Positions 2 to 21,826 of a DNA stretch of 44,121 nucleotides are shown here, piece after piece. Both the position numbers and the translations under genes were made by a program. The stretch lies in assembly GCA_903923135.1 (NCBI GenBank), contig CAIXWN010000060.1, positions 1 through 44,121 on the forward strand, read 5' to 3'. The stretch's first letter is position 1. Each line of letters begins with the position of its first letter. The notes beneath the pieces are model-generated. The model did no database searches, was not told where the DNA came from, and saw only the letters and a program-made list of their open reading frames with translations. Source of the DNA: an uncultured Caulobacteraceae bacterium. GTDB taxonomy: Bacteria > Pseudomonadota > Alphaproteobacteria > Caulobacterales > Caulobacteraceae.

Positions 2-484
2 CTGGACGCCGAGGCCGTGGCGCGGGGCATCCTTCAGCGCGAGGTCGGCGAGACCATCGGCGTGGCGGTGGCCGATCCGTCGATCTTCAGCCAGGACGGC
101 GGCCCCTCGATCGGCGAGCGGATGCGACGGGCGGGGGTGCGTTTCCGCCCGGCCGACAACACCCGCGTGGGCAAGGCCGGGGCGCTGTCGGGATGGGACC
201 AGGTGCGCGCCCGCATCGCCGGAACCGAGGCCGGGCCGATGCTGGCGGTGTTCGACACCTGCCGCGATTTCATCCGCACCGTGCCGGTGTTGCAGCACGA
301 CCGGATGCGGCTGGAGGATCTGGACACCTCGGCCGAGGACCACATCGCCGACGAGACCCGCTATGCCTGCCTGGCGCGGCTGATGGCGCCGAAGATCGCG
401 GCGGGGCCGATGACGGCGGAGGAGCGGTGGCGGCGGGACTGGCCGAAGGAAGGGGCGGGGGTGGCGCACTGGAAGGTGTGGTGA
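2..484 (+). CDS. phage-type terminase large subunit, C-terminal part (partial at window edge)
   Basis: The reading frame is open from base 2, so the gene starts before the window. About 160 residues are visible. They match the C-terminal, RNase H-like nuclease half of large terminase subunits: a DPSIF stretch, a GWDQVRARI block, VFDTCRDFIRTVP, and EDLDTSAEDHIADETRYAC just before the tail. In phages and gene transfer agents this domain cuts the DNA concatemer during head filling. I recognise the family from these motifs; whether this one is a prophage or a GTA gene cannot be told from the fragment. No portal or capsid gene follows. The last 34 codons plus stop are duplicated at 17047-17151, so the gene end is also the left edge of an inserted island. 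Confidence 0.75.
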   Translation: MDAEAVARGILQREVGETIGVAVADPSIFSQDGGPSIGERMRRAGVRFRPADNTRVGKAGALSGWDQVRARIAGTEAGPMLAVFDTCRDFIRTVPVLQHDRMRLEDLDTSAEDHIADETRYACLARLMAPKIAAGPMTAEERWRRDWPKEGAGVAHWKVW

Positions 485-485
485 G
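380..485 (+). repeat. left copy of island-flanking direct repeat
   Basis: Bases 380-485 match 17047-17152 with a single mismatch (T at 479, C at 17146); the first 99 bases are identical. The repeat encodes the end of the terminase (LMAPKIAAG... to the stop codon) and ends one base after that stop. In this copy the last residue is Trp. Outside the repeat the two flanks differ at once on both sides. Confidence 0.95.
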
Positions 486-557
486 GGGGGGCGTCCGCGC
501 CGTCCTGCAGCAGTTCGCAGGCTTCCCCCGTTCGGTGCTCCGCTCGCGACCAAAAAT

Positions 558-598
558 CATGTACACGTCGATGATTTAATGTCGTCAGTGTTGACATT
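558..598. promoter_or_regulatory. operator/promoter of the island TonB receptor gene
   Basis: Bases 578-598 form a 21-bp palindrome with perfect 6-bp arms, AATGTC (578-583) and GACATT (593-598), around a 9-base centre. The same arms occur at three other island promoters. A degenerate related half-site (ATGTACACG, 559-567) lies just upstream. A perfect -35 hexamer TTGACA (591-596) overlaps the right arm; the -10 17 bases later (TTAACT, 614-619) is poor. Occupation of the palindrome would block the promoter, as expected for a TetR-type repressor. The overlap is seen; the protein that binds is inferred. Confidence 0.65.
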
Positions 599-684
599 TA
601 AAACGACGCGAAATTAACTGCCCAGAGCGTCAGCTTCGGACCGCCGCGAGACGGCGGCGCAGGCATAACGAGGGGAATTCGCGC

Positions 685-2988
685 ATGACAAGGCAACGGC
701 GGATCAAGGCGTGGCTGATGGCTTCGGCCTGTCTGGCGATCGGGATGGCGGCGCAGCCCGCACTCGCTGCGGACGCGGCGGCGTCGGCCAGCGCTGCTGA
801 CGGCGGCGCAGCGACGGTGGAAAGCATCACCGTCACGGCCCGGCGGAAGCCCGAAACGCTGTTCAACGTCGCCGCGCCTGTCACCGTGGTTTCCGGCGAG
901 ACGCTCAAGGCCTTCGACATCAGCGACATCATCACTGTGATGAACCTGGTGCCGAACGCGGTGGTGCCGACCAACCCGGACAACTACGTCACCTACATCA
1001 ACATCCGCGGCATCCAGCAGGTCGACGCCCAGGCGCAGCCGAACTTCGGCATCTATCGCAACGGCATGTATGCTGGCGGCGAGCGGCCGAACTACGGCCC
1101 GCTTTTCGACGTCGATCGTATCGAGGTCAATTCGGGCCCGCAGTCCGGTCTCTACGGGCGGGACGCGGTGGGCGGCGCCATCAACGTCATCTATGCGACG
1201 CCGTCATCCAAATTCGGCGGCTATCTCACCGCCGGATATGGCAACTGGGACCGGACCGAGATCCAGGGCGCTGTGAACCTGCCGGTGTCGAGCGCCTTCG
1301 CGGTGCGTCTCGCCGGGTGGTACGAGAACCAGGCCAAGGGGGAACTCTACAACACCTACCTCAACACCTACGTCGACAAGAACCGGGAAGAGGGGCTGCG
1401 CCTAACCGCGAAGTGGCAGCCCACCAAGGACCTCTCGGTCCTGTGGATGGCGGAGTACGCGAACAACACGGGCCCATCGATCCAGACCTATGCGCCGAAC
1501 GGGATCGGCGCACTGATAACGGTCAGCGCGCCGGAGACGCCCACCTCGATATCGCGCAACACCCCGAACGTGAATCACAACCACCAAGTCTATCTGTCGC
1601 AGGACGTGAAGTACGCCTCGTCGATAGGCGTGTTCGAACTGCTTTCGTCGTACAGCGACTACCATCTGTCCGACGTCGAGGACGGAGACCAGACCAGTGT
1701 CGACCCTGCCGGCGGCTTCCTCAACACCTCGCTGGAATTGCGGCGGCACGAGAGCGTGCGGAACATCTATTCCGAACTGCTGTGGCACTCGCCGCCGCTC
1801 GGCCCGGTGGATATCATTTCCGGCGTGTCGTACTTCGACCAGGTGTTCAAATTCGAGCGTCAGTACACGAGCTATGTTGACCTCAACTACCTGAGCGGCG
1901 CGGGCGGAAATACAGCCTGCGCGATCCTGCTGTCGGACCCGACCTGTCCCGGGGTTCCCGGCGGCGCCTTCCCCGCCCTGGGCGTGCAGTCCGCCATCTT
2001 CGAGGTTCCGGGAGGCGGTACGCAGGTCGACACCCAGTCGATCTCGGCTTTCATCGACGGGACCGTCCACCTGACGAAACAGTGGAGCCTCAATGCGACG
2101 GTCCGCTACACGAACGATGCGGAGCATCTGAATTTCCGCCAGTTCGCGACCGCGACAGGGCCCGGGTCGCCCTATATCGCGGCCCTGCTCGCCAACATCT
2201 TTCCGGCCTTGAGCCTGGTGGACAAGCCCTCGTTCCACAACGTCAGCCCCAGCGTCGAAATCAACTACCGGCCGACGAGCGAGTTGAACTTCTACGCGCT
2301 TTACAGCACCGGGTTCCGCGCCGGCGGCTTCAACACGGTGACGACCACGGCCTCCCTGATCCCCTACGGCTCTGAACAGGCGCAGAACTATGAAGTCGGG
2401 GCCAAGACGCTGTGGCTGAACGGACGGCTGGGACTCAATCTCGCGGCCTTCTACATGGCGCAGAACCACCTGCTGACCTACGAGCCCGATCCGATCGCCC
2501 CACCTCAGTTCGGCTTCTTCTATCTCGCCAACGTCGGGTCGGCAGGCACCTATGGCGTCGAGTTCACCGGCGTGGCGCAGCCGACGAGCTGGCTTTCGAC
2601 ATCGGTGACGGTGGGGTGGCTTGACGGTCACTACACCGGAGGGGTGTCCTACGGCGTGTCGCAGGCCGGCCAGCCGTTCCAGAACACCCGCACCTGGACG
2701 GTTAACGCCGAGGCCCAGGTCAGGTACCCGTTGACGGAGGGTTTCGCCCTGATCTCCGGGATCAATTATCACGTCGAGACCGGCGGGGTGCTCGACATCC
2801 CGACCCTGCCGTGGCCGACCCTGAACCGCCTCGACGCGACCTTCGGTGTGGCGCACAACGGGTTGAGCGTGGTGGTCTATGTCAATAACGCCTTCAACAG
2901 CCGCCCGCCCGACTTCGTCTATGGCAACGGCGGGACGACGCTGGTGCAGGGGGCAACCTATGGCGTGCGGGCGACCGCCAAGTTCTAG
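685..2988 (+). CDS. TonB-dependent outer-membrane receptor (island)
   Basis: A 767-residue outer-membrane receptor that imports a substrate with energy from TonB-ExbBD. Residues 1-29 are a Sec signal peptide ending ALA; a TonB-box-like ESITVTARRKPET follows at about 46-58. The plug domain (about 60-175) has the usual NIRGIQQ, DRIEVNSGPQSGLYGRDAVGGAIN motifs. The rest is a beta-barrel with aromatic-rich strands and the terminal Phe (GVRATAKF) typical of barrel insertion. The ATG at 685 follows an AGGGG ribosome site. It is first in a plus-strand run with a hydrolase and an aminotransferase, so it probably imports the compound that the island degrades. The family call is firm; the substrate is unknown. 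Siderophore uptake is possible because the next gene resembles IroE, but no other iron gene is present. Confidence 0.93.
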   Translation: MTRQRRIKAWLMASACLAIGMAAQPALAADAAASASAADGGAATVESITVTARRKPETLFNVAAPVTVVSGETLKAFDISDIITVMNLVPNAVVPTNPDNYVTYINIRGIQQVDAQAQPNFGIYRNGMYAGGERPNYGPLFDVDRIEVNSGPQSGLYGRDAVGGAINVIYATPSSKFGGYLTAGYGNWDRTEIQGAVNLPVSSAFAVRLAGWYENQAKGELYNTYLNTYVDKNREEGLRLTAKWQPTKDLSVLWMAEYANNTGPSIQTYAPNGIGALITVSAPETPTSISRNTPNVNHNHQVYLSQDVKYASSIGVFELLSSYSDYHLSDVEDGDQTSVDPAGGFLNTSLELRRHESVRNIYSELLWHSPPLGPVDIISGVSYFDQVFKFERQYTSYVDLNYLSGAGGNTACAILLSDPTCPGVPGGAFPALGVQSAIFEVPGGGTQVDTQSISAFIDGTVHLTKQWSLNATVRYTNDAEHLNFRQFATATGPGSPYIAALLANIFPALSLVDKPSFHNVSPSVEINYRPTSELNFYALYSTGFRAGGFNTVTTTASLIPYGSEQAQNYEVGAKTLWLNGRLGLNLAAFYMAQNHLLTYEPDPIAPPQFGFFYLANVGSAGTYGVEFTGVAQPTSWLSTSVTVGWLDGHYTGGVSYGVSQAGQPFQNTRTWTVNAEAQVRYPLTEGFALISGINYHVETGGVLDIPTLPWPTLNRLDATFGVAHNGLSVVVYVNNAFNSRPPDFVYGNGGTTLVQGATYGVRATAKF

Positions 2989-3003
2989 GGGACCGGCGGC
3001 GCC

Positions 3004-3117
3004 GGAGCGTTTCCCGATCTGATTGCAACAATCAGATCGGATCCGAAACGCTCCAAGCTTTTGAATCCAGGGCAAATCAATTCCGACCAGATGAGTCCAT
3101 CCGGTCGGAGTTTGCCC
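3004..3117. repeat. two adjacent long hairpins between receptor and hydrolase genes
   Basis: Hairpin 1 spans 3004-3054. Its outer arms GGAGCGTTTC (3004-3013) and GAAACGCTCC (3045-3054) and inner arms GATCTGATTG (3016-3025) and CAATCAGATC (3029-3038) are all perfect. Hairpin 2 spans 3070-3117, with arms GGGCAAA/TTTGCCC and TCCGACC/GGTCGGA. Neither is followed by a T-run, so they are not classical intrinsic terminators. They look like a REP/BIME-type intergenic repeat or an mRNA-stabilising element separating receptor and enzyme expression. Confidence 0.7.
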
Positions 3118-3137
3118 CAAGGGGTCTGGAGTTCTGA

Positions 3138-3965
3138 ATGGTCGAGGTCGTCGAGACGGACAGCTGGCCGATGCGCCGCGCCATCAGCCTCGCCTTCACC
3201 TCGCAGGTGAACGGGCTGGACTACCGCCTGGGCGTTTCGACGCCGTTCGCCGACGCGCCGCCCGCCGGCTATCCGGTGCTGTTCGTGCTCGACGGCGACG
3301 CCAATTTCGGCGCGGCGAGCGAGACGGCGCGGAACCAGTCGATTTTCTCACCCGGCGTCGACGCCGCGGTGGTCGTGGCGATTGGCTACCCGGTCGGCGA
3401 GTTGCGCGACATTCTGCGCCGAAGGTATCTCGACCTGACGACGCCAGCGCCACCCGAACCGATGGCGCCCTCCGACCCCTATTTCGGATCGGTTACCGGT
3501 GGCATGGACGGGTTCCTGGATGTCGTCGAACATGAGATCCTGCCGATAGTCGCCGGACGGTTCCCGATCGACGACGGCCGGCGCGCCCTGTTCGGACACT
3601 CGCTGGGCGGCCTGACGGCTCTGCGGGCGTTGCTCACCCGCCCCGCACTGTTCGACAGTGTGGTCGCGTCGAGTCCGTCGTTGCATTGGGACGATCGGGC
3701 AATTTTCGGCGACGCGGAGAGGTTCCTCGCATCGACGCCTACCGGCGAACGCCAGCCCGCCTTGCTGATCAGTGTCGGGGCGCTTGAGGACGGTACGTTT
3801 CCCATGACCGGCAATGCGCGAGACATGGCCGACCGCCTGAAGCCGGCCGTCGGTTCGCGGCTGCGCGCCCTGTCGCTGCATGTGTTCGGCGACGAAAATC
3901 ACGACAGTGTCGTGCTGCCGGCGCTGAGCCGCGCCGTGCGGTTCGCGTTCAAGACGACCGATTGA
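3138..3965 (+). CDS. alpha/beta hydrolase, esterase of the Fes/IroE (PF00756) type
   Basis: A 275-residue serine hydrolase. The nucleophile elbow GHSLGG places Ser155; the VLDGDANF stretch (50-57) and the late ENHDSVV (His255) fit the enterochelin-esterase/esterase D family, where Ser, Asp/Glu and His form the triad. No signal peptide is visible, so it should act in the cytoplasm. The family includes siderophore esterases (Fes, IroE), S-formylglutathione hydrolases and feruloyl-type esterases. A TGGAG site precedes the ATG. It lies 150 bp after the receptor, past two hairpins, and before an aminotransferase, which suggests that it cleaves the imported compound. The substrate is not deducible; siderophore hydrolysis is the main alternative. 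Confidence 0.8.
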   Translation: MVEVVETDSWPMRRAISLAFTSQVNGLDYRLGVSTPFADAPPAGYPVLFVLDGDANFGAASETARNQSIFSPGVDAAVVVAIGYPVGELRDILRRRYLDLTTPAPPEPMAPSDPYFGSVTGGMDGFLDVVEHEILPIVAGRFPIDDGRRALFGHSLGGLTALRALLTRPALFDSVVASSPSLHWDDRAIFGDAERFLASTPTGERQPALLISVGALEDGTFPMTGNARDMADRLKPAVGSRLRALSLHVFGDENHDSVVLPALSRAVRFAFKTTD

Positions 3966-4041
3966 CGCGACCGCGATGCTTCGGCCCCGCGCCGGAGCGA
4001 CAAGAAATATCCTCGTGCCCACGGGCGATCTGGAGATCCTG

Positions 4042-5142
4042 ATGAAATACGCCCGCATGCCGATCGAAGTCGAATCCCCCGAGGAGTACGGTTACGCCAA
4101 CATCCGTTACAACCTTTCGGAGAGTTCGGTATCGGACCAGACCTTCAAGGGCCTGTCACTGGCGTTTCCGGATCTGACTCTGCTCTATGGCGAACATCGT
4201 GGGTCGGAAGCGTTTCGCGCCTTGATCGCCGCGGAAAGTCCAGGACTCGGCGTCCGGGACGTGCTGATGACCGCGGGCGCGGCGGGCGCACTCTTCATCA
4301 TCGCCACCAGCCTGCTCGAATCAGGGGACCATCTTGTGGTCGTGCGGCCGAACTACGCCACCAACCTCGAGACGCCGCAGGCTATCGGCTGCAGGATCTC
4401 CCATGTAGACCTCACGTTCGAGACTGGCTTCCGGCTCGATCTGCAGGCGGTGGAAAGCGCGCTTACACCCGCGACCAAGCTCATCAGCGTGACCACGCCG
4501 CACAACCCCACGGGGGTGAGCCTGACGAGGCGCGATCTCGACGGTCTCGTCCGGATCGCCGAACGCCATGGCTGTCGGCTGCTCGTCGATGAAACCTACC
4601 GCGACCTCAGCTACGACGAACCGCCGCCGATCGCCGCGGCCCTGAGCACCCGGGCCATCAGCGTCTCTTCGCTGTCGAAGGCCTACGGCGTTCCTGGCGT
4701 CCGAATGGGCTGGATCATTACCCGTTCCCCCGAATTGCAGGAGCTGTTCCTGGCGGCGAAGGAGCAGATAAGCATATGCGGCAGCGTCACGGACGAGTGG
4801 ATCGGCCTGCAGGTGATGTCGCGCAGGCGGGAACTCCTGGACCGAACACTTCCGGAAATGCGCGCACGACTGGCGGAGGTCGAGACCTGGATGGCCGGCG
4901 AACCTCTCCTCGAGTGGGTCAAGCCCAGCGGCGGGGTCGTGTGCTTCCCGCGCATCAAGGAGGCTGCCCAGATCGATCTCGAGGACTTCTACCGAAGACT
5001 TCTAAGCGATCACGGCGCCTACGTTGGCCGCGGCCGATGGTTCGAAATGCCCGATAGCTACTTCCGTTTGGGATATGGCTGGCCGAGCGCGACAGACCTC
5101 ACGGGCGGGCTACAGGCGATCTCCGCCGCGTTGCGTCCATAG
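4042..5142 (+). CDS. PLP-dependent aminotransferase, class I/II (island copy 1)
   Basis: A 366-residue fold-type I PLP enzyme that moves amino groups between amino acids and 2-oxo acids, or does a related PLP reaction. Seen motifs: TPHNPTG (Asn155), LVDETY (Asp183, pyridine nitrogen), SSLSKAYGVPGVRMGW with the Schiff-base Lys213, and a C-terminal Arg in FRLGYGW that would bind the substrate carboxylate. The ATG at 4042 has a GGAG 7 bases upstream; the frame also allows an ATG at 3976, which lacks a ribosome site. It is the last gene of the receptor-hydrolase-aminotransferase run and converges on the aldehyde dehydrogenase. It is a distant relative of the aminotransferase at 15926-17050. Confidence 0.87.
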   Translation: MKYARMPIEVESPEEYGYANIRYNLSESSVSDQTFKGLSLAFPDLTLLYGEHRGSEAFRALIAAESPGLGVRDVLMTAGAAGALFIIATSLLESGDHLVVVRPNYATNLETPQAIGCRISHVDLTFETGFRLDLQAVESALTPATKLISVTTPHNPTGVSLTRRDLDGLVRIAERHGCRLLVDETYRDLSYDEPPPIAAALSTRAISVSSLSKAYGVPGVRMGWIITRSPELQELFLAAKEQISICGSVTDEWIGLQVMSRRRELLDRTLPEMRARLAEVETWMAGEPLLEWVKPSGGVVCFPRIKEAAQIDLEDFYRRLLSDHGAYVGRGRWFEMPDSYFRLGYGWPSATDLTGGLQAISAALRP

Positions 5143-5144
5143 CT

Positions 5145-5175
5145 AAAAACGCCTTTCGTCCGAATCGAAGTTTTT
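5145..5175. terminator. possible bidirectional terminator between convergent island genes
   Basis: Between the convergent aminotransferase and aldehyde dehydrogenase genes, AAAAAC (5145-5150) pairs with GTTTTT (5170-5175) and TTCG (5155-5158) with CGAA (5166-5169). The short stem is flanked by A and T runs, so it could end transcripts from either side. The stem is weak and has a 4-base bulge. Confidence 0.4.
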
Positions 5176-5202
5176 GATCGTTTAACGGCGCTCCGCCGGA
5201 CC

Positions 5203-6627
5203 TCAGCGGCCTCCGAACAACATCTTGGTCTCGAGGTACTCGGCAAGTCCGTAGGCTCCCCACTCGCGGCCGTTGCCAGACTGCTTGTAGCCGCCGAACG
5301 GGGCGCCGTAGTCTGCTTGCGTTTCGTTGATGTGGACCATGCCGCTGCGTAGGCGTCGCGCGAGCTTCGTCGCGCGGGCATGATCGACCGACCAGACCGC
5401 GCCGGAGAGGCCGTAACGTGTGGAATTGGCGATCTGAATGGCCTCTTCCTCGTCGCGCCAGGTCATGATGCACAGAACCGGCCCAAAGATCTCCTCCCGA
5501 GCGATCTCCATATCGGCGGTGACGTTCGCGAAAACGGTCGGAGGGACATAGTAGCCGGTGACCAATCCCTCCGGCGCGGCCTCGCCGCCGGCCACCATCT
5601 GGGCGCCGCCTTGGAGCCCGGAGCGGATAAATCCCCTGACGCGCTCCAACTGGTCTCGGCTGGCGACCGGCCCCATGGTCGTCGCCGGGTCCGCTGGATC
5701 ACCGACTATGACGGTCTGAGCCGCGGCGATGGCGCCCTCGATCGCCTCATCCTGGCGGTCCTCCGGCACGAGCAGCCGGGTCCAGGCGGCGCAGGACTGG
5801 CCGCTGTTGCGGAACAGGCGGGAGGCGGCCATTCGGGCGTGGGCGCGGATATCGACATCGGGCAACAGGATGCAGGCGGACTTGCCGCCCAGTTCCTGCG
5901 CGATGCGCTTGACCGTCGTCGCGCCCGCCTGGGCGACAGCGACGCCCGCCCGGTTCGAGCCGGTGATGGAAACGAAATCGACCTCCGGATGTCGAGCCAA
6001 GGCCTCACCAACCACTGGGCCAATCCCGCCGACTAGGTTGAACACGCCCGGAGGTACGCCAGCCTCGTCGAGGATCTCCGCGAACAACCAAGCGTTCAAC
6101 GGTGCGACCTCGCTGGGTTTGAGCACCATCGCGCAGCCAGCGGCGAGGGCGGGAGCGACTTTGCAGGCGATCAGGCTGATTGGCCAGTTCCAGGGGGTGA
6201 TCAGCGCGCAGACCCCGATCGGCTCCTGGACCACGATGCCACCGGCCCGAGGGGTCTCGAAGGCGTAGGTCTCCAGCGTGCGGGCCGCCTCGGTCAGGTG
6301 AGCCAAGCCCTGCGGCACATGCGATCCACGGGCAATGGCGATCGGGGCCCCCATTTCGGCCGAGATCAGCGCCGCCATTTCCTCGGATCGACGCTCGTAG
6401 ACCGCGATGATCCGCGCTAGCAGCGCGCGGCGCTCCTCTACGGTGGTCAGGGAGAAGGTTTCGAACGCGCGGCGGGCGGCCATCACGGCTCGATCGACGT
6501 CAGTCGCGCCGCCGAGGGATATTCGCGCGATCTCGCGCTCGTTCGCCGGATTGATCACCGGGAGTTCGCCGGCCGCGGCCGGCGCGACCCAACGGCCGTC
6601 GATGAAAAAGTCCCGAGTGTGTCGCAT
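5203..6627 (-). CDS. NAD(P)-dependent aldehyde dehydrogenase
   Basis: A 474-residue aldehyde dehydrogenase superfamily member that oxidises an aldehyde to the acid. All hallmarks are present: PWNWP (Asn148, oxyanion hole), LKPSE (Lys170, cofactor), FVSITGSNRAG at the nucleotide loop, ELGGKS with the general base Glu245, and NSGQSCAAWTR with the nucleophile Cys279. It lacks an N-terminal extension, so it is cytoplasmic. It is third in a minus-strand run: transporter, CocE-type hydrolase, then this gene 8 bases after the hydrolase stop. This suggests that it oxidises an aldehyde released from the imported compound, for example after transamination. The substrate class is not readable from the sequence. 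Confidence 0.93.
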   Translation of the reverse strand: MRHTRDFFIDGRWVAPAAAGELPVINPANEREIARISLGGATDVDRAVMAARRAFETFSLTTVEERRALLARIIAVYERRSEEMAALISAEMGAPIAIARGSHVPQGLAHLTEAARTLETYAFETPRAGGIVVQEPIGVCALITPWNWPISLIACKVAPALAAGCAMVLKPSEVAPLNAWLFAEILDEAGVPPGVFNLVGGIGPVVGEALARHPEVDFVSITGSNRAGVAVAQAGATTVKRIAQELGGKSACILLPDVDIRAHARMAASRLFRNSGQSCAAWTRLLVPEDRQDEAIEGAIAAAQTVIVGDPADPATTMGPVASRDQLERVRGFIRSGLQGGAQMVAGGEAAPEGLVTGYYVPPTVFANVTADMEIAREEIFGPVLCIMTWRDEEEAIQIANSTRYGLSGAVWSVDHARATKLARRLRSGMVHINETQADYGAPFGGYKQSGNGREWGAYGLAEYLETKMLFGGR

Positions 6628-6635
6628 GGCGAGAC

Positions 6636-8510: not shown

Positions 8511-8512
8511 CT

Positions 8513-9883
8513 CTAGACGGCCTGCGCCGGACGCTGCGCGCGCCCCTCCAGACGCCGGCGGACGATTGCGTGCCGGCGCGCGCTCAGAGGGAACATCGCG
8601 ATGAAGACGGCCGCGCAGATAGCCAGGATCCCCGGCACGACCGCGTACGCGAGGGTGAGCGCCATCTCGGCGCCTTGGGAGTTCACCGCTCCAACCTTGT
8701 AGTGCATCCAACCAAGCAGGATGAGGACGCCGCCGGCGCCCAGGGCCGAGGCTGCTTTCCCGACCAGGGTGTAGAGGGAGAAAATGTTGCCGGCCTTGTT
8801 CACGCCAGACCTCATGAAATCGTAGTCGACCGCGTCGGACAGCATGGCCGGCGGCGCGAAATTCGTCGGCACACTAAGGAAGGCGCTGACGCCGACCAGC
8901 GCGGCCATGCCGACGAGGGCGTGACCGGGGGGCAGCAGCAGCACCAGCGGCCTCAGCAGGGCGTCGGTCGCGAGCCCGAAGGCCCAGGCCCGGTTGCGGC
9001 CGAAGCGGTTCGACAGCCACGCCCAGACCGGAGCGGTGGCGATCTGGACAATGAAGAAGCCGATCATCAGGGGCGCGAAGGCGGCCCCGAGCTTCAGGCG
9101 ATCGGTCACGAAGATCAGGAAGACGGACAAGTAGGCGCTCTGGCCCGCGTTCCACAGGATGGCGGCGACGGTGAATATCCGCAGCGGGCGGTTTCGCGTG
9201 GCAGACCAGACCAGCGATTTCAGGGTGAGTGGCGCGGACGCCACCGGAATGCCCGTAGGTACATAAATCGCGGCGAGGACACTGGCGGCCGGCATGATGA
9301 TCGCGAACAGCACCGACATCGCGGTAAGGCTTGCACCCGTTATCTGTGTGGTTCCGGTCAGGCCGGACAGCACGATCGGCGAGAGCCAGAAGATCAGTGC
9401 GCCCGAGATAGCCATCACCGCGAGAATCAGATTGATTGTCGTCCGCTTTTCCTGGTCGCGAGAGATTTCCGTCGTCCAGGCATTTCGTGGAATATCGAAG
9501 AGGCTGAAGCCAAGATACAGAAAGTATGACGAGAGACCGAAGTAGATGACGTCCGATCGATGAGTGGGATTGAACAGGAACAGAATTGATCCCGCGCACA
9601 GAAATCCGCCCGCCAATACCCAGGGTTTACGGCGACCGAGCCTGGATTTCGTACGGTCGGAAAGGACGCCGATCATCGGGTCTGTCAGGACATCGAACAG
9701 CCTGGAGAACGTCGTCACAAGGCCGATCTGCACAAGGGTCACCTGTGTGTGCGCCGCGTAGAAGGCCGGCAGCACGATGTTCAGCGGCATGTTGACGAAG
9801 GCCAGGGCGAAGGTCGGCAAGCCCAACAGGAGCATCTGGGCCATGCTGGGCGTGGTGGCGCGAGGCCTCATTGAACCAGCCAT
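8513..9883 (-). CDS. MFS transporter of the GPH (glycoside-pentoside-hexuronide) type
   Basis: A 456-residue inner-membrane transporter with about twelve hydrophobic segments. The loop DPMIGVLSDRTKSRLGRRKPWVL at about 68-91 is the signature of the MFS_2/GPH family, and a second conserved stretch is FDIPRNAWTTEIS. Members of this family are cation symporters for sugars but also for other solutes in Caulobacterales and sphingomonads. A GGAG ribosome site lies 6 bases before the ATG. The gene is first in the minus-strand operon with the CocE-type hydrolase and aldehyde dehydrogenase, and its promoter region is shared with the divergent epimerase-like gene. It probably carries the compound or a fragment from periplasm to cytoplasm after the TonB receptor step. 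Confidence 0.88.
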   Translation of the reverse strand: MAGSMRPRATTPSMAQMLLLGLPTFALAFVNMPLNIVLPAFYAAHTQVTLVQIGLVTTFSRLFDVLTDPMIGVLSDRTKSRLGRRKPWVLAGGFLCAGSILFLFNPTHRSDVIYFGLSSYFLYLGFSLFDIPRNAWTTEISRDQEKRTTINLILAVMAISGALIFWLSPIVLSGLTGTTQITGASLTAMSVLFAIIMPAASVLAAIYVPTGIPVASAPLTLKSLVWSATRNRPLRIFTVAAILWNAGQSAYLSVFLIFVTDRLKLGAAFAPLMIGFFIVQIATAPVWAWLSNRFGRNRAWAFGLATDALLRPLVLLLPPGHALVGMAALVGVSAFLSVPTNFAPPAMLSDAVDYDFMRSGVNKAGNIFSLYTLVGKAASALGAGGVLILLGWMHYKVGAVNSQGAEMALTLAYAVVPGILAICAAVFIAMFPLSARRHAIVRRRLEGRAQRPAQAV

Positions 9884-9925
9884 TCCAGCTCCCGCGCCGA
9901 GTGCCCCCCGGGGCTACGCACTCTC

Positions 9926-9964
9926 TTGACGACCACCGTCTATATCCACATTGTGGACATTATG
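9926..9964. promoter_or_regulatory. shared divergent operator/promoter (transporter and epimerase-like gene)
   Basis: The palindrome 9941-9961 has arms TATATC and GACATT around CACATTGTG and is the most symmetric copy of the island operator (TCCACAtTGTGGA core). A -35-like TTGACG starts at 9926, 15 bases before the palindrome, the same spacing as at the amidase gene. The right edge of the palindrome touches the ATG at 9962. One bound repressor could therefore silence both directions. Confidence 0.65.
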
Positions 9965-10960
9965 AACCGTTTGTCCATCGATCAAATCTCGATCTGTCCC
10001 CGCTCATTTCCGTTGGCCGCCGCACGGTCGATCTCGCGGGAAACCAGCACCCATGCCGACCTGATCGAGGTGATCGTGACCGGTGGCGGGGTCACGGGAA
10101 TCGGTCAGGCCGGCCCGACGCCCCACTGGGGCGAGTCCGTCGCCGGGGCCCTGGCCGACTTCGCCGCGATCGAGCCCCGGCTGCGGGCGCTTGGCGGCCG
10201 GGCGGATCTGCAGCAGACCTTGCCCGCCGGCGCCCTGCGCAATGCGGTCGACTGCGCCTTTTGGGACCTTGAGGCCAAGCAGACCGGCCGATCCGTGGAA
10301 GCCATCGCCGGCGTCCCGATCGGACCGGTGACAACGGTCTTCACCATCTCCCTGGACACGCCCGAGGCGATGGGCGCGTTGGCCAGGCGCGAACGGGACC
10401 GCCCGGTCATCAAGATCAAGCTCGGCCACTTCGCCGCCGACGCCGAACGGCTGCGCGCGGTCCGCGCCGGCGCGCCGGCCGCCCGGCTGGTGGTCGACGC
10501 CAACGAAGGCTGGAGCCTGGACCAGCTGATCGCCATGGCTCCCGTCATCGCCGAAACCGGTGTGCAGTTGATCGAGCAGCCCCTGCCGGTGCGGGACGAC
10601 GAGGCGCTGCGCGGCCTGACTTTTCCCGCGCCTCTGTGCGCCGATGAAGCCTGTCACGTCCGCACCGACCTGCCGCGTCTGGAGGGGCTGTACACCCTCA
10701 TCAACATCAAGCTCGACAAGACCGGCGGCCTGACCGAGGCGCTGGCGCTGGCCCACGAGGCGACGTCAAGGGGGTTCGGCCTGATGGTCGGGTGCACCTG
10801 GGGAACGACGCTGGGGATGGCGCCGGCCTTCCTCATTGCCCAGGCCTGCCGCATCTCGGACCTGGATGCTCCGCTGTTCCTCGCCGATCAGGAGCGCGAC
10901 CAGTTGAGCTATGACGGATCCAGCATCTCGTTCGCACCCAGCCGGACGTGGGGCGTGTGA
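9962..10960 (+). CDS. enolase-superfamily dipeptide epimerase-like enzyme
   Basis: A 332-residue member of the muconate-lactonizing subgroup of the enolase superfamily. The pattern fits L-Ala-D/L-Glu and other dipeptide epimerases: KIKLG with Lys151/Lys153, metal ligands Asp179 (VVDANEGW), Glu205 (LIEQPLP) and Asp228 (CADEA), and the opposite-face Lys250 (NIKLDKTGG). These enzymes invert an alpha-carbon via a Mg-stabilised enolate. N-succinylamino-acid racemase and o-succinylbenzoate synthase are related alternatives. The ATG at 9962 is the only start that keeps the usual N-terminus; it has no ribosome site and abuts the operator, so the mRNA may be leaderless. An epimerase supports a substrate with D-configured or stereochemically altered residues. 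Confidence 0.85.
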   Translation: MNRLSIDQISICPRSFPLAAARSISRETSTHADLIEVIVTGGGVTGIGQAGPTPHWGESVAGALADFAAIEPRLRALGGRADLQQTLPAGALRNAVDCAFWDLEAKQTGRSVEAIAGVPIGPVTTVFTISLDTPEAMGALARRERDRPVIKIKLGHFAADAERLRAVRAGAPAARLVVDANEGWSLDQLIAMAPVIAETGVQLIEQPLPVRDDEALRGLTFPAPLCADEACHVRTDLPRLEGLYTLINIKLDKTGGLTEALALAHEATSRGFGLMVGCTWGTTLGMAPAFLIAQACRISDLDAPLFLADQERDQLSYDGSSISFAPSRTWGV

Positions 10961-11121
10961 ACCGCTGGTTCGTCGAGCGCAACTTCGGCCCCCGGATGTC
11001 GACTCAAGGCTTGGTGAGCGGCCGATTGCGCGGTAGTCAGGCGCCACCGGAGGGCGGTTCTTGTCGCATTCGGACGCCGCGCGGCGGAACCGTTCCGGTC
11101 GAAGGCAATCAATCCTAGAGA

Positions 11122-11826
11122 ATGGTCGGACAGGTGAACGCTGATCTGCACGGGCGGGATTCGGAGGTCGCGCCGGATGAAGGCGCCGCCGGCCCGGCCC
11201 GCCCCTACCACAAGGGCAATGTCGCAAAGGATCTGCTGAAGGCCGCGACACGGTTGATGCAAAAGGAGCGGCTTGAGGATATTTCCGTTCGCCGGCTGGC
11301 CCGCGAAGTCGATGTCTCGCCGCGAAATTTCTACAACCACTTCGAATCGATGGACGACCTGTTCTTCACCCTGGCCGCCAGGAGGTTCGATCGCCGTGTC
11401 GCGGTGGCGAAGAAGATCATGGCGCAGGAGACGTCGAGGAAGAAGGTCGTCGTCGCCCTGGCCGTCGAGTTCGTCGAGGCCGCGGTGCGGGATCCCGAAC
11501 TGTTCCGTGTGATGTTCGGCCGGATCGCCGCCGGTTCCCGGCACAAGCTGATGGGCCCGGCGTCGGTGGCGTCGTTCCGGCTGCTGGTCAAGGCGGTCTA
11601 TGGCGATGACCGCTACAGGGTGGACGACTTGGCCTGGTCGATCGAAAATTGCGAGACCGCCTACAGCCTGTTCTCCCTGGAATACGGACTGGCCCGCAAC
11701 ATTCTCGACAAGCACATCCGGCCTCAGCCCAACACCGAAGAGACGCGCAGGCGCATCGTCGAGTCCATCGTCGGCAGTTTCGTCAACGGCACCTGCGGCG
11801 ACGTGTTCAGGGAAGCCGCGCCCTGA
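11122..11826 (+). CDS. TetR-family transcriptional regulator, likely regulator of the island
   Basis: A 234-residue regulator. The N-terminal helix-turn-helix (about 33-85) has the TetR pattern: GNVAKDLLKAATRLMQ, ISVRRLAREVDVSPRNFYNHFESMDDLFFTLA. The remaining helical C-terminal domain would bind the inducer and dimerise. TetR dimers bind palindromes, and four near-identical palindromes occur in the island's promoter regions, so this is the obvious candidate binder. It is the only regulator gene in the island. It lies 161 bp after the epimerase-like gene and just before the amidase; its own upstream region has no clear copy of the palindrome, so it may be made constitutively at low level. The ribosome site is weak (TAGAG). 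Confidence 0.9.
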   Translation: MVGQVNADLHGRDSEVAPDEGAAGPARPYHKGNVAKDLLKAATRLMQKERLEDISVRRLAREVDVSPRNFYNHFESMDDLFFTLAARRFDRRVAVAKKIMAQETSRKKVVVALAVEFVEAAVRDPELFRVMFGRIAAGSRHKLMGPASVASFRLLVKAVYGDDRYRVDDLAWSIENCETAYSLFSLEYGLARNILDKHIRPQPNTEETRRRIVESIVGSFVNGTCGDVFREAAP

Positions 11827-11840
11827 GGCGCGTAGGGCGC

Positions 11841-11876
11841 TTGACGGCGGCCGGAAATATCCACATCGTGTACATC
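11841..11876 (+). promoter_or_regulatory. operator/promoter of the amidase gene
   Basis: A third copy of the island palindrome lies at 11856-11876: arms AATATC and TACATC around CACATCGTG. A -35-like TTGACG starts at 11841, 15 bases before the palindrome as at 9926. It lies between the tetR stop and the amidase start (GTG 11898). The right arm is degenerate, so binding may be weaker here. Confidence 0.6.
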
Positions 11877-11897
11877 AACGCGGATGCGGGGTGACGT

Positions 11898-13292
11898 GTG
11901 GTCAGGACAATCATCGAGACGGCGCGGCGGGTCCGGAGCGGGGATCTCACGGCGCTGCGGGCGGTGGACGACGCTCTGGCCGTGATCGCGGCGAAGAACC
12001 CCGCACTCAACGCCTTCATCATGGTCGATGCCGACGGCGCGCGCGAGGCGGCCCGGGTGATCGACGCGAAGGTCGCCCGGGGCGAGGATCCCGGCCCCCT
12101 CGCCGGCGTGCCGTTTGGGGTCAAGGACCTGGAGGACTGCACGGGTTTCCGGACAACGCAGGGGAGCGTCTTCCTTATGGAGACGGCGCCGAAGACCGCG
12201 GATTCCGTTCATGTGGCGAGGCTGCGCGCGGCCGGCGCCATCCCGATCGGCAAGACCAACGTTCCCGAGTTCGGCCTGGACGGAAAGACCGCGCCACGGG
12301 CGTGGGGCGTCACCCGCAATCCCTGGAACACCGATCTTACGCCGGGCGGTAGCAGTGGTGGCTCGTCTGCGGCGGTAGCCGCCGGCATGACGCCCTTCGC
12401 CACGGCGACCGACGGGGGAGGCTCGATCCGTGAGCCCGGCGCCTTTACGGGGTTGCTGGGTCTGAAGCCCAGCCACGGGCGGATCGCCAAGGAGTCCGGC
12501 TTCTCGAACTGGTCGGTTCGCGGCGCCATGACCCTGACCGCCGCTGACACCGCCCGCTATCTCGACGTCGCCGCCGGCCCGAACAATCGTGACCGCCAGT
12601 CTCTCCCTCCGCCCGCCGTCCCTTACGAGGAGGCCATCGAGACCCTCGATCTGCAGGGACTCCGCGCCGTCTGGACGCCGGATTACGGTTACGCCGCGGT
12701 GGATCCAGAAGTCGCCGCCATCGCCGAAGCGGCCGCCCGTCGGCTGATCCAGGCGGCAAGGCTCGCCCTGGTCGACCTGAAGGTGCGGATGACCCCGGTC
12801 ATTCGCCAATGGGGCGTGCTGAACTTCAGCGTGCTGGAAAAGGACTTCACGGCCAAAGGCTATCTGCCGGATGGCTGGGACAAGCTCGCCGAGTCGACGC
12901 AGTTCTACCTATCGATGATGAGGGAGCGGCGGGACGGGCCGTCGGTCGAGGAGTCGTGGCAGGGTCTGTATGCCTGCGAGCAGGAATTCGCGGCGATCTT
13001 TGGCGATGTGGATCTGATCTTCTCGCCGGCGACGGCCTGCCCGGCCTACGGCGCCGAGGCCCCCACGCCCACCGAGATTGGCGGCAAGGACGCCACCATC
13101 GGCGGCGCCCAGCCGTTCGGCATGTTCGCCAACATCTGCTGGAACCCGTCGATATCGATACCGGCCGGGGTGACGGCGGCCGGCCTGCCGGTCGGCCTGC
13201 AGGTGACTGGCCCGCGTCACCGGGATGACATCCTGGTGCGGCTGGCCAGGATCATGGAGAATGTCCAGCCCTGGGAGCACCCCTTCGCATAG
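11898..13292 (+). CDS. amidase-signature family amidase
   Basis: A 464-residue amidase that hydrolyses a carboxamide with the Ser-cisSer-Lys triad: Lys76 in PFGVKDLED, cis-Ser at 152/153 in PGGSSGGSSAAVAAG, nucleophile Ser176 in ATDGGGSIREPG. The motif PEFGLDGKT precedes them as usual. After the nucleophile many family members have IRxPA; here it reads IREPG, a small departure near the active site. The GTG at 11898 is the only plausible start; the ribosome site is poor. It has its own operator upstream and converges with the serine hydrolase gene 20 bp downstream. The substrate range of the family is wide (fatty, aryl and peptide amides), so the role in peptide-like amide cleavage is inference. 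Confidence 0.9.
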   Translation: MVRTIIETARRVRSGDLTALRAVDDALAVIAAKNPALNAFIMVDADGAREAARVIDAKVARGEDPGPLAGVPFGVKDLEDCTGFRTTQGSVFLMETAPKTADSVHVARLRAAGAIPIGKTNVPEFGLDGKTAPRAWGVTRNPWNTDLTPGGSSGGSSAAVAAGMTPFATATDGGGSIREPGAFTGLLGLKPSHGRIAKESGFSNWSVRGAMTLTAADTARYLDVAAGPNNRDRQSLPPPAVPYEEAIETLDLQGLRAVWTPDYGYAAVDPEVAAIAEAAARRLIQAARLALVDLKVRMTPVIRQWGVLNFSVLEKDFTAKGYLPDGWDKLAESTQFYLSMMRERRDGPSVEESWQGLYACEQEFAAIFGDVDLIFSPATACPAYGAEAPTPTEIGGKDATIGGAQPFGMFANICWNPSISIPAGVTAAGLPVGLQVTGPRHRDDILVRLARIMENVQPWEHPFA

Positions 13293-13312
13293 AGGCCTGA
13301 CGGATCGGACTG

Positions 13313-14722
13313 TCAGCGCCGAAAGACGCGGGCGACCTCGCCATTGCCCAGTTCGTGAATCGCCAGTTCGCGCGCCGGGCCCCCGGCCGGGTTGACCGCT
13401 TCCAACGAGAAGATGGAGTCGACGCAGAACAGCCGTCCGTCGGTTCCCTGGCCCATCGGCTCCACGCGACCGTGTCCGCCCGGCCGGCTCAGGCGGAGCA
13501 GACCGTCCTCCATCGCCAGAACCAGGGGCGGGGCAACATCCCCGTCGAACCGGAACTCGCCTTCGAATCGCCTGGCGATCGCCGGAGTGATCGGGACGGA
13601 TTGGCGCGGCCGCGGCGCGAACTCCGGCCAACCGCAAAGAACGGCCAAGCCGTGCGCCGCTTCCAGATAGACGTGTTTCCCGGAATCGGCGTTCGTCATC
13701 GCAACCAGGCCGTCGCCCGATCGAAGCGATAGCCGGGCCATGCTCCGGAAACCCAAGTTGGAGCCCGTATGGCCGAACCCGAGCCCATCGCCAGCCCCAT
13801 AAAGGATCCAGCCGAGGCCGAAATCCCCGCCCTGGGGCGTCAACATGGCCCGGGCGCTGGCCTGGTCCAGCAACCGGTCGTCTTTGCCCAGGGCGGCCTG
13901 CCGGAAGGCGAGCAGGAGCCGGGCGTACTCGGCCGGGGTGGTCCACAGGCCTGCCGCGGCCAATTGCGGCTGATACCGCCAGACGCCGTCCATCGGCTCA
14001 CCGCGCTCGTAGCCGACCGCCGCGTTGGAGCGCGTGCTCAGGTCAAGCGGCTGGGCGAAGGTCGATCGGGACAGGCCGAGCCTGTCGAACACACGCGACC
14101 TCGCCACATCCCCCATCGGCGATCCGGTCAGGTCCTCGATCAGGAGCTGGATCAGTGTGTAGCCGGTATTCGAATAACGCTCCTGAACGCCGGCGGGCCC
14201 GGCGAAGGCCAGCGGAGCGTTCACCGCCGGTGGGCGCCCTTCGAGTACATCGATGGTCGACGGGCGGGGCGCGTCGGGGGAGAGGCTGAGGAAGCGGACG
14301 GTCGTTGCGCCGGAGCGGTGGCTCAGCAGACTTCTGAGCGTCACCGGGGCGCCATCGGGCACGGGCGCCTGCCAGGATGTGAGATGGCGGTTGATGTCGT
14401 CGTCGAGCCCCACCCGTCCTTCGCGTACGAGTTGCAGAGCCAGGATCGCGGCGACAGGCTTGCTCATGGAGGCGGCCTGAAAGAGCGTCTCCACGTCCGC
14501 GGTGCGCGCCACCGCCGCTTCCGCATGGCCCCAGACCGCCGCTTCGGTCACGACGCCGTCGCGGATCAGCGCCAGACTCAGCGCCGGGCATTGGAAGTGG
14601 GCGAGGCGGTCATCGAGGCGATAGCGGCGGTCCTCGCCGGCCAGCGGGGCGATCGGCCGCATCGCTTCGCGCAGCGATGCCAGCACGGGGCCCGGTCGGA
14701 TTCCCTCCGAATGGGCGCTCAT
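13313..14722 (-). CDS. class C beta-lactamase-fold serine hydrolase (D-aminopeptidase/esterase type)
   Basis: A 469-residue member of the PF00144 family (AmpC, D-aminopeptidase, EstB). The catalytic set is complete: SMSK (Ser85, Lys88), YSN (Tyr183-Asn185), and HTG (318-320) in place of KTG. The C-terminal 120 residues look like an added beta-rich domain (ITPAIARRFEGEFRFDGDVAP...), as in D-aminopeptidases and similar enzymes. There is no signal peptide, which argues against a resistance beta-lactamase and for a cytoplasmic hydrolase of D-peptides, amides or esters. I placed the start at the ATG at 14722 because upstream codons run through the palindromic operator; no good ribosome site is visible. 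It is divergent from the cyclodeaminase-like gene and shares its regulatory region. Confidence 0.83.
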   Translation of the reverse strand: MSAHSEGIRPGPVLASLREAMRPIAPLAGEDRRYRLDDRLAHFQCPALSLALIRDGVVTEAAVWGHAEAAVARTADVETLFQAASMSKPVAAILALQLVREGRVGLDDDINRHLTSWQAPVPDGAPVTLRSLLSHRSGATTVRFLSLSPDAPRPSTIDVLEGRPPAVNAPLAFAGPAGVQERYSNTGYTLIQLLIEDLTGSPMGDVARSRVFDRLGLSRSTFAQPLDLSTRSNAAVGYERGEPMDGVWRYQPQLAAAGLWTTPAEYARLLLAFRQAALGKDDRLLDQASARAMLTPQGGDFGLGWILYGAGDGLGFGHTGSNLGFRSMARLSLRSGDGLVAMTNADSGKHVYLEAAHGLAVLCGWPEFAPRPRQSVPITPAIARRFEGEFRFDGDVAPPLVLAMEDGLLRLSRPGGHGRVEPMGQGTDGRLFCVDSIFSLEAVNPAGGPARELAIHELGNGEVARVFRR

Positions 14723-14772
14723 CGCAGGTGGCGATTGCGGGTCGCTGGGGGCCACGTCCACCTCGTCCGTAT

Positions 14773-14820
14773 AATATACACAATGTAGACATTTTGGCGG
14801 ACATCGGGTAAGCCTGTCAA
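14773..14820. promoter_or_regulatory. shared divergent operator/promoter (serine hydrolase and cyclodeaminase-like gene)
   Basis: The fourth palindrome, 14773-14793, has arms AATATA and GACATT around CACAATGTA. For the minus-strand serine hydrolase, a perfect TTGACA lies at 14820-14815 and a -10-like CAAAAT at 14796-14791, 18 bases on, so the palindrome overlaps the -10. The plus-strand cyclodeaminase-like gene starts 160 bp further right. Coordinates and matches are seen; regulation is inferred. Confidence 0.62.
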
Positions 14821-14952
14821 CGCGTTCTCGACGACCGCGCCGTCGCCCAGACGGTCGGCCGAAGAGTTCAAGACCCAGACTTTGCAATCCAATGCTGCCG
14901 CCATGGCCTTTGGGCTTCCCTGCCCCGGCGCGACTTCAATCCGGAGGCGACC

Positions 14953-15912
14953 GTGAATATTCCCATCCTTGATGCGGCGGCGGTGGAAGCGTGGGCGGGG
15001 CGGATCGATTTCGCGCGGGTGCTGCGGGATATGTTCGGCTCTCTGCATGCGGGACGGTCGGCGCAGCCCCCGCAGAGCCTGACACTGTTCCCGGATGGGT
15101 CGGGGGATTTCATCACCTATCAAGGGGTGATGCCCGACGCGGGCGTGTTCGGGGCGAAGCTGTCGCCCTATATCGTCCGCCCGGGCGACCTGCCGCTGAT
15201 CACCGCCTGGACCCTGCTGATGTCGACGACGACCGGCCGACCGCTGCTGCTGTGCGACGCCGCGCGGCTGACGACCGAACGCACGGCCGGCGTGACGGCC
15301 CTGGCCGTCGACCTGCTGGCGCCGGCGGGCGCGCGGCGGCTCGCGATCGTCGGCGCCGGCGCACTGGCCGAGGCGCATCTGCGCCATGTCCTGCCGCTGC
15401 GCAACTGGGAGAGCGTCATGATCGCCTCGCGGCGCCTGGGGGCCGCGCCGGCGGGGGCGTTGGAGCGCTTCACTGCGCGTGACGGGCGGGTGGAGATGCG
15501 CGGCTCGGTGGACGAGGCAGTGGCCGGGGCCGGGGCCGACGTGATCCTGCTGTGCACCTCCTCTGCTGGTCCAGTGGTGGATCCGGAACGACTGGAGCGG
15601 CCGGCCCTGATCTGCTCGATCAGCACCAACGTCCCACGGGCCCATGAGATACCGCCCGCCGCCCTGCCGGGGCTCGACGTCTATTGCGACTATCGCGCCG
15701 CCGCGCCTCTGGCGGCCGGCGAGATGCTGATCGCGCGCGAGGCGCACGGCTGGTCGCCGGACTCGATCGTAGCCGACCTGGGCGAACTGGTCGGCGGCAA
15801 GGTCATCGACCGTGACGGGCTACGCCACGCCTTCTTCCGCTCGATCGGTCTCGGTCTTGAGGACATCGCCGTCGCGGCCGAGATTCACCGCGCCCTGTCC
15901 GCCAATCTCTAG
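14953..15912 (+). CDS. ornithine cyclodeaminase/mu-crystallin-family protein
   Basis: A 319-residue NAD(P)-binding enzyme. The Rossmann motif AIVGAGALAEAHLRHV (131-146), the conserved Lys in GAKLSPY (Lys69) and TTERTAGVTALAVDLLA (107-123) mark the family. Members catalyse ornithine to proline, alanine or lysine dehydrogenation, ketimine reduction, or related amine/imine redox steps, so the exact reaction is open. The GTG start has a GGAGG site 6 bases upstream. It is followed 13 bases later by an aminotransferase, and the pair is likely co-transcribed. In the pathway it could oxidise or cyclise an amino acid released by the hydrolases. Its GC content is visibly higher than in the left part of the island. 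Confidence 0.85.
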   Translation: MNIPILDAAAVEAWAGRIDFARVLRDMFGSLHAGRSAQPPQSLTLFPDGSGDFITYQGVMPDAGVFGAKLSPYIVRPGDLPLITAWTLLMSTTTGRPLLLCDAARLTTERTAGVTALAVDLLAPAGARRLAIVGAGALAEAHLRHVLPLRNWESVMIASRRLGAAPAGALERFTARDGRVEMRGSVDEAVAGAGADVILLCTSSAGPVVDPERLERPALICSISTNVPRAHEIPPAALPGLDVYCDYRAAAPLAAGEMLIAREAHGWSPDSIVADLGELVGGKVIDRDGLRHAFFRSIGLGLEDIAVAAEIHRALSANL

Positions 15913-15925
15913 AAGAACCACGACC

Positions 15926-17050
15926 ATGAAGATCGAACCGTTCGGCATCGAGATGTGGATGAACGAACACGAGACGCGCTGTCTTCACAACGCGGCCGAG
16001 AGTTGCGTCGATTCCGTCACTCTGGCCGAGTTGACAGCCATGGCCGGCAAGACCGGCGTCCTGATGGACGAACTGCTGCCGCTGAAGCTGACCTACGGGG
16101 CGATCCAGGGGTCGGCGCGCCTGCGGCGGGCCATCGCAGCTCTATATCGGGGTCGGACGGAGGACGAAGTGGTGGTGACGCACGGCGCCATCGGCGCCAA
16201 CGCCCTGCTGTACCAGACCCTGATCGAGCCGGGTGACGAGGTGGTCGCGGTCGTCCCCACCTATCAACAGCACACTTCGATCCCGGAGAGCCAGGGCGCG
16301 GAGGTGAAGCGCCTGGTCCTTAGGGAAGAGGAAGGCTATCTGCCAAACCTCGACGAGTTGGCGTCGCTGGTGACGCCCCGCACCCGTCTGATCTCTCTGA
16401 CCAACCCGAACAACCCGACCGGCGCCCTGATCGACGAAGCGAGTCTGCGGGCCATCGCCGAGATCGCCGCACGCCACGATGCCTGGGTGATCTGCGACGA
16501 GGTCTATCGCGGGATCAACCAGACTGGCGACGACCTCTCACCGTCCATCGCCGAGATTTCCGACAAGGGCGTGGCTGTCGGCAGCATGTCCAAGGCCTTC
16601 GCCCTGGCCGGACTGCGCCTGGGCTGGATCGTGGCGCCGCCAGAGCTGTTGCACCGGGTGATGATCCACCGGGACTACGACACCATCAGCGTGGGCGCGA
16701 TCGACGATCACCTCGCCGCCATCGCGCTGGAGAACCGCGACGCGCTGCTGGCCCGCAATCGCGATGTGGTGCGGACCAACCTTGCCAGGCTGGCTACCTG
16801 GATGGAGCGGGAGCCGCGCCTGTCCTGGGTGCGACCCGCCGGCGGCACGGTCACCCTGCTGCGCTACGACGCGTCTATCGGCTCGGTCGAGTTCTGCACG
16901 CGCCTGCTGGAGAAGACCGGGGTGCTGCTGGCGCCGGGGGCGGCGTTTGGCGTGGAGGGGACGGTGCGGATCGGCTTCGGCAACGGCGCGGCGGCGCTGG
17001 CCGGCGGCCTGGAAGGGCTGTCGCGCTTCCTCCGCTCACTCCCCACCTGA
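15926..17050 (+). CDS. PLP-dependent aminotransferase, class I/II (island copy 2)
   Basis: A 374-residue fold-type I aminotransferase. Motifs: TNPNNPTG (Asn163), VICDEVYRG (Asp191), SMSKAFALAGLRLGW (Schiff-base Lys223) and the C-terminal VRIGFGNG (substrate-binding Arg). The ATG at 15926 has an AGAAG site and follows the cyclodeaminase-like gene by 13 bases. The stop codon TGA (17048-17050) is supplied by the right flanking repeat, which begins at 17047. So the natural C-terminus may have been trimmed or replaced by a few residues when the island joined the terminase fragment. All catalytic parts are upstream, so activity is probably kept. It is paralogous in type, not closely similar, to the enzyme at 4042-5142. 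Confidence 0.88.
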   Translation: MKIEPFGIEMWMNEHETRCLHNAAESCVDSVTLAELTAMAGKTGVLMDELLPLKLTYGAIQGSARLRRAIAALYRGRTEDEVVVTHGAIGANALLYQTLIEPGDEVVAVVPTYQQHTSIPESQGAEVKRLVLREEEGYLPNLDELASLVTPRTRLISLTNPNNPTGALIDEASLRAIAEIAARHDAWVICDEVYRGINQTGDDLSPSIAEISDKGVAVGSMSKAFALAGLRLGWIVAPPELLHRVMIHRDYDTISVGAIDDHLAAIALENRDALLARNRDVVRTNLARLATWMEREPRLSWVRPAGGTVTLLRYDASIGSVEFCTRLLEKTGVLLAPGAAFGVEGTVRIGFGNGAAALAGGLEGLSRFLRSLPT

Positions 17051-17151
17051 TGGCGCCGAAGATCGCGGCGGGGCCGATGACGGCGGAGGAGCGGTGGCGG
17101 CGGGACTGGCCGAAGGAAGGGGCGGGGGTGGCGCACTGGAAGGTGCGGTGA
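17047..17151 (+). pseudogene. terminase large subunit remnant (last 34 codons)
   Basis: The right repeat keeps the terminase reading frame from the Leu codon at 17047 to the TGA at 17149-17151, ending in VAHWKVR. There is no start codon context and no upstream terminase sequence, because the preceding DNA belongs to the aminotransferase. It is therefore a remnant left by the insertion, or the original gene end displaced from its 5' part. Confidence 0.85.
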
Positions 17152-17152
17152 G
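17047..17152 (+). repeat. right copy of island-flanking direct repeat
   Basis: Second copy of the 106-bp repeat, offset by exactly 16667 bases from the left copy. It follows directly on the end of the second aminotransferase gene, whose TGA stop (17048-17050) lies inside the repeat. The last terminase codon here reads Arg (CGG) instead of Trp (TGG). Confidence 0.95.
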
Positions 17153-17185
17153 CGGAGGGCGGCAGGGGGATGCGTCGTCCCTTCG

Positions 17186-18177: not shown

Positions 18178-18192
18178 CCGGGGCCGTCGCCG

Positions 18193-18927: not shown

Positions 18928-19028
18928 GCGCGGTGCTTAGGCCGGTCATGGCCGTTTCGCAAAGCGTGCGGCGGATCGGCCGGTTTCGGAACGGCGGCCG
19001 TGCTGGAACAGGCGCGCATGGGCTGATA

Positions 19029-19050: not shown

Positions 19051-19063
19051 ATGGAGTCCTTCC

Positions 19064-21812: not shown

Positions 21813-21826
21813 GGGCGGCGGACGTC

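Follow-up and report, generated by a model that had tools for sequence, protein, structure and literature searches.

A metabolic block behind an orphan phage terminase gene, bordered by two copies of the gene's 3′ end, in a Caulobacteraceae draft genome

Results

The end of a terminase gene is present on both sides of a metabolic block

The window analysed here, 44,121 nucleotides long, is the whole of contig C60 of a 4.64-Mb, 279-contig Caulobacteraceae draft genome, and it raises the question of how a large set of metabolic genes came to lie between two copies of the 3′ end of a gene for a large terminase (terL). The initial annotation described a 106-bp terL end duplicated at both borders with an offset of 16667. 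Comparison of the window with itself reproduces this: positions 380–485 and 17047–17152 are identical at 105 of 106 bases, are spaced by 16667 and correspond to the last 34 codons and the stop of terL. The similarity extends slightly further, to a 112-bp match (380–491 and 17047–17158), in which the stretch 380–478 (99 bp) is exact and all three mismatches, at positions 479 (T/C), 486 and 489, fall within the last 13 bp. In the alignment of the two copies, the flanks show no match upstream of 380 or past 491. Apart from this pair, the longest direct repeats of the window measure 31–37 nt at ~70–78% identity; an exact match of 99 bp is not remotely expected by chance in a sequence of 44 kb.

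The left copy (380–485, forward strand) closes the terL reading frame with a tail of type A (...WKVW stop). The right copy (17047–17152, forward strand) has no gene body, carries a tail of type B (...WKVR stop) and is read here as a displaced old tip. The tips probably go back to two different alleles and not to the copying of a single target, since they differ in the last 13 bp after 99 identical bp. Direct repeats derived from the end of a target gene are present, as the attL and attR of an integrase-driven island would be. A tRNA gene as the target is ruled out, as the window contains none.

The terminase gene belongs to an orphan clade

Contig C60 begins inside terL, and the 5′ part of the gene and the left chromosomal flank lie outside the window. 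What remains (2–484, forward strand, 161 codons including the stop) encodes a 160-residue fragment that on its own has no Pfam, PHROG or NCBIfam match. It aligns at 82–85% to the C-terminus of a sister protein in the related genome G015 and is called terL because this full-length homologue (501 residues, Walker A motif intact) is a large terminase (Pfam PF03237, PHROG 979 and 2).

Portal and capsid genes are absent after terL both in the window and in its seven clade sisters, whereas in phage contigs and in three contigs of the same genus, portal, capsid or other phage genes come after members of the terL family. The eight orphan copies, including that of the window, form one clade with no phage members (tree support 96/95); they reside on C60, C72 and C73 of the window's own genome and at L061, L062, L063, L064 and L066. 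A small terS-like gene is found upstream of most of them, and the number of terL copies per genome in the genus ranges from none to about three. The six full-length copies of the orphan clade have no stops and show pairwise dN/dS of 0.21–0.28, compared to 0.07–0.10 for pairs of phage terL genes. The intact frames and these ratios indicate that orphan terL is kept by selection, more weakly than in phages, and the conserved clade raises the question of why the host retains it. The initial annotation took the attachment point to be a packaging gene of a phage or gene transfer agent (GTA); at this locus, with no portal or capsid gene after it, terL is part of neither. The C73 copy (L057) carries, at ~8265–8367 on the minus strand, an insertion of ~105 bp with a hairpin-forming palindromic sequence, which is absent from the terL genes of the window and of G015.

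The block carries metabolic, transport and regulatory genes

The inserted block (486–17046, 16.56 kb) contains 12 ORFs, every one of which is metabolic, transport or regulatory. It opens on the forward strand with a TonB-dependent receptor (685–2988) and an esterase (3138–3965), both assigned by Pfam, and a PLP aminotransferase (3976–5142), followed on the reverse strand by an aldehyde dehydrogenase (5203–6627), a CocE/NonD family hydrolase (6636–8510) and a GPH-type MFS transporter (8513–9844). A racemase of the enolase superfamily, DgcA-like just below the cut-off (9926–10960), a TetR-type regulator (11122–11826) and an amidase (11898–13292) are again on the forward strand, a serine hydrolase with a beta-lactamase fold (13313–14722) is on the reverse strand, and the block closes on the forward strand with an ornithine cyclodeaminase/mu-crystallin family protein (14953–15912) and a second PLP aminotransferase (15926–17050). 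Both aminotransferases are GntC/VioD-like, below the family cut-offs. Together with the racemase, the amidase and the hydrolases, they suggest that the host may utilise an amino-acid-like amide or ester.

The claim of the initial annotation that no integrase is encoded holds: neither a recombinase nor a transposase is found among the 12 ORFs, and the intergenic gaps do not exceed 230 bp, which leaves no room for an integrase or a sizeable remnant of one. The cargo genes lie flush with both terL tips. No IS ends are found at the borders, and no inverted words of 11 bp or more are common to the two ends of the island, so that transposon hallmarks are absent.

The composition of the block is mildly foreign. 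Its GC content is 66.1% compared to ~69.2% in sampled contigs of the genome, where one of 23 windows of equal size is as low in GC and two of 23 are as deviant in tetranucleotides. A search of 390 genomes of the family, 385 of the class, and plasmids yielded no close copy of the island, the best homologue of the CocE protein being 46% identical. The only part of the cargo common to relatives is the cyclodeaminase–aminotransferase pair (14953–17050), a two-gene unit conserved among several Caulobacteraceae (e.g. on contig C43 of G015), of which a second copy with 59% identity is present on contig C165 of the window's own genome.

The right joint coincides with a stop codon

The terminal aminotransferase has homologues of 374–375 residues in six other Caulobacteraceae loci, always beside the same cyclodeaminase gene. 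The protein of the window is 374 residues long and its stop codon is at the same position, and the island gene is therefore complete. The TGA that ends it is at the same time part of the right-hand tip: the identity with terL starts exactly at the aminotransferase stop, and only CTGA (17047–17050, forward strand) is common to both sides of the joint. The stop of the aminotransferase in genome G009 also has the context ACCTGA. The joint looks like an illegitimate one made at a candidate microhomology, for which 4 bp are weak evidence; alternatively, it could be an att boundary that starts at the stop codon by chance.

A related genome has a sister terminase beside the same flank but no island

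The island is absent from near relatives. In G015, contig C82 carries terL at 52117–53556 and, 1.65 kb later, the genes of the right flank with no island in between; these genes are collinear with positions 18175–22925 of the window at 80–90% nucleotide identity. The first of them is a prephenate-dehydrogenase-like gene (18193–18927, reverse strand). The G015 terL is a sister of those of the window and of C73 (tree support 99/95). Its presence beside the same flank implies that terL at this locus predates the island, unless G015 has lost the island. The initial annotation had predicted an empty site in which terL runs straight into base 17153; among the relatives compared none was found, and the nearest is the G015 site with its 1.65 kb.

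In G015, the stretch from terL to the flank encodes a MucR regulator and what reads as a PIN-like protein (no Pfam match); the corresponding place in the window is taken by a PrdB-like gene (17242–18177, forward strand), which is missing at the G015 site. The PrdB-like product matches D-proline reductase PrdB weakly (E 4.8e-23, below the cut-off), a match unexpected in this lineage. Close to the right flank of the island, a two-gene cassette at 19064–19719 resembles an antitoxin/PIN toxin pair. An attempt to link contig C66, the orthologue of the left flank in G015, to the window failed, as C66 ends 0.2 kb after an M28 peptidase gene.

Terminase tips and the DNA behind them vary elsewhere

In the window's own genome, the terL tip occurs on C60 and C73 only; a tip-like match on C267 is a chance one inside what reads as a gene of the outer-membrane efflux type. 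The body of the C73 terL is ~97% identical to that of the window, with the first 132 bp identical, whereas the last 34 bp contain 12 differences as against 15 in the ~450 bp before them (Fisher p 1.7e-8). These last 34 bp are only ~65% identical to the tips of the window, and the DNA after the C73 gene is unrelated. As both the tip and the following DNA differ, terL tips appear to change together with the downstream DNA.

At two loci besides the window, different cargo abuts an orphan terL. In genome G006, a 3.6-kb set of LysR, aldo/keto reductase and MFS genes starts ~30 bp past the terL stop, whereas in its relative G001 terL leads directly into the next shared gene without such an insert. 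At the lysS locus, 12.4 kb of private DNA follow the terL of C72 before synteny with G015 resumes, compared to 2.1 kb in G015. The variable DNA after terL is consistent with a hotspot specific to this gene, but the lysS region varies without terL too. A more general rule, by which the right side of terL is variable and the left conserved, was dropped, because lysS loci without terL vary and the left side varies by ~1–2 kb.

Duplicated or bare terL tips are absent from 12 other terL contigs of the relatives and the same genome, the contigs just described among them. In ~198 terL loci, bare tips are likewise absent except for one case in a phage-like region of Rhodospirillales (L141, 11383–11563). 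There, the terL 3′ end and ~50 bp are tandemly duplicated before the next gene (90% over 124 bp), with short repeats around.

The repeat is unlikely to be an assembly artefact

Reads of two strains or of two terL copies might have been joined via the 99-bp identical stretch. The draft consists of 279 contigs, and C60 starts within terL and has its first 132 bp exactly in common with C73, all of which speaks for such an error. However, the ends of contigs C9 and C11 share exactly 141 bp and those of C7 and C105 share 140 bp, pointing to a de Bruijn assembler run with a final k of 141. Such a k is longer than the 106-bp repeat, and the assembler should have bridged it. Furthermore, an assembler could hardly have been misled at the joint between the aminotransferase and the tip, where long homology is lacking. 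The other phasing of the repeat would give an empty terL site and a 16,667-bp circle, and the island is thus tied to the terL tip either way. We regard an artefact of assembly or strain mixing as quite improbable.

Discussion

How the block may have been gained

The island is best described as a horizontally gained metabolic block sited behind a host-resident orphan terL. In line with the initial annotation, the repeat is best read as a trace left by DNA that was inserted via the 3′ end of terL, given the sister gene of G015 beside the same flank without an island and the low probability of an assembly artefact. The proposal of site-specific integration is left unsupported by the lack of a recombinase, the 12 other terL contigs without bare tips and the stop-codon joint with its CTGA.

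Our tentative explanation, drawn from comparison of the sequences, is homology-facilitated illegitimate recombination at the resident terL, which may account for the island. Incoming DNA, probably linear, would have consisted of a terL 3′ end of type A followed by the cargo. Its terL would have served as a homology anchor and paired with the resident terL of type B upstream of the prephenate-dehydrogenase gene. Homologous recombination inside the gene would then produce a full-length terL with the A tip at its end and the cargo behind it. The far end of the cargo, at the aminotransferase stop, would be joined illegitimately into the resident terL at a point 106 bp short of its end, and the old B tip would be left stranded on the far side. 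The identical upstream parts and differing downstream ends of the tips point to recombination between a cargo-linked and a resident terL allele. The joint change of tip and downstream DNA seen at C73, and the insert of G006 close behind its terL, also speak for this reading. The left end, a full-length terL end with a differing distal tip, fits a joint made in long homology, with neither donor nor crossover seen. Events of this type are known in competent bacteria and in conjugation of E. coli, and the same source reports that they are rare in experiments, which counts against the proposed event (PMC3240628). So does the identity of the two copies in the hypervariable part of the tip (451–478), since donor and recipient must then have carried nearly the same allele. 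The lack of an exact empty site, the mild GC and tetranucleotide signal and the weak 4-bp microhomology are further points against it, and the 390 family and 385 class genomes and the plasmids searched for the CocE homologue yielded no donor in which terL is linked to these cargo genes.

The same map would result from a Campbell-type crossover as from homologous recombination on one side combined with an illegitimate joint on the other. In the Campbell-type case, a 16,667-bp circle with a 106-bp terL attP would have been integrated by a tyrosine recombinase later lost or acting in trans, restoring terL on one side, displacing the old end to the other and giving rise to a CIME-like island. The repeat, the restoration of terL on one side only, the distal differences between the tips and the G015 sister locus without an island all agree with this; there are precedents for integrases with terminase and other prophage late genes as their targets (PMC10111431), and CIMEs keep attL and attR and lose their integration genes (PMC5704250). 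Several points count against such an origin: there is no recombinase or remnant, the cargo genes are flush with the tips, the identity begins exactly on a stop codon, and no second element is found at a terL tip in the 12 other contigs, the tip itself being confined to C60 and C73 in this genome. Because of the missing recombinase, the flush genes, the CTGA joint and the failure to find an integrase-bearing element at a terL tip, we lean towards an integrase-independent event, which fits slightly better; a Campbell-type or CIME-like origin is nearly as likely.

The right tip could also be the remnant of a complete second terL, left when one terL copy recombined, together with its downstream DNA, into the locus of another. 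Genomes with several copies and the nearly identical terL bodies of C60 and C73 make this conceivable, but it is rather unlikely: the last 34 bp of C73 are ~65% identical to the tips of the window, yet these tips are identical to each other for 99 bp, and a deletion of 1.3 kb would be needed whose end coincides exactly with the stop codon of the aminotransferase.

If homology-facilitated recombination at the resident gene is what took place, a leftover phage packaging gene retained by the host serves as a recombination anchor for the gain of large metabolic blocks without a dedicated integration enzyme. Island finders based on integrases would miss such gains, and the displaced-tip footprint would be a simple, searchable sequence signature of them. 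A far more speculative and highly improbable extension is that orphan terS–terL cassettes act as portable landing and launching sites, with metabolic cargo moving between terL copies without integrases. In this scheme, the terminase of a related phage would start packaging the chromosome at terS and continue through terL and into whatever DNA is downstream; the recipients' own terL would provide the homology for uptake of the packaged DNA.

Comparison with known systems

Genomic islands of one class target a tRNA or protein gene and insert at its 3′ end. The island described here resembles them in having a gene-end direct repeat at both borders and an intact gene on one side, and differs in the lack of an integrase and in the unusual target gene. 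Helper-embedded PICIs (HE-PICIs) likewise use a phage packaging gene as the integration site, but they encode an integrase, AlpA and a primase, reside inside prophage late genes and, in the founding case, have an identity block of 10 bp (PMC10111431); here, there are no satellite genes and no prophage, and a 106-bp block lies at the gene end. CIMEs, too, lack integration and transfer genes and lie between two copies of a gene 3′ end (PMC5704250). The island shares with them the presence of repeats and the absence of mobility genes. Unlike CIMEs, it has no ICE or IME remnant genes or other sign of former mobility genes, and no related element was found at the same site. Also similar in outline are the displaced 3′ tips in V. 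cholerae T6SS and Rhs loci, for which the same mechanism, homology-facilitated illegitimate recombination, was proposed (PMC5361080). In both, the gene body is constant and the 3′ tip variable, new DNA lies behind the gene, the old 3′ end is stranded downstream and there is no integrase. There, the cargo is an effector–immunity module; in the window, a metabolic block of 16.6 kb takes its place, an orphan phage terminase is the anchor, and the two tips hardly differ in sequence.
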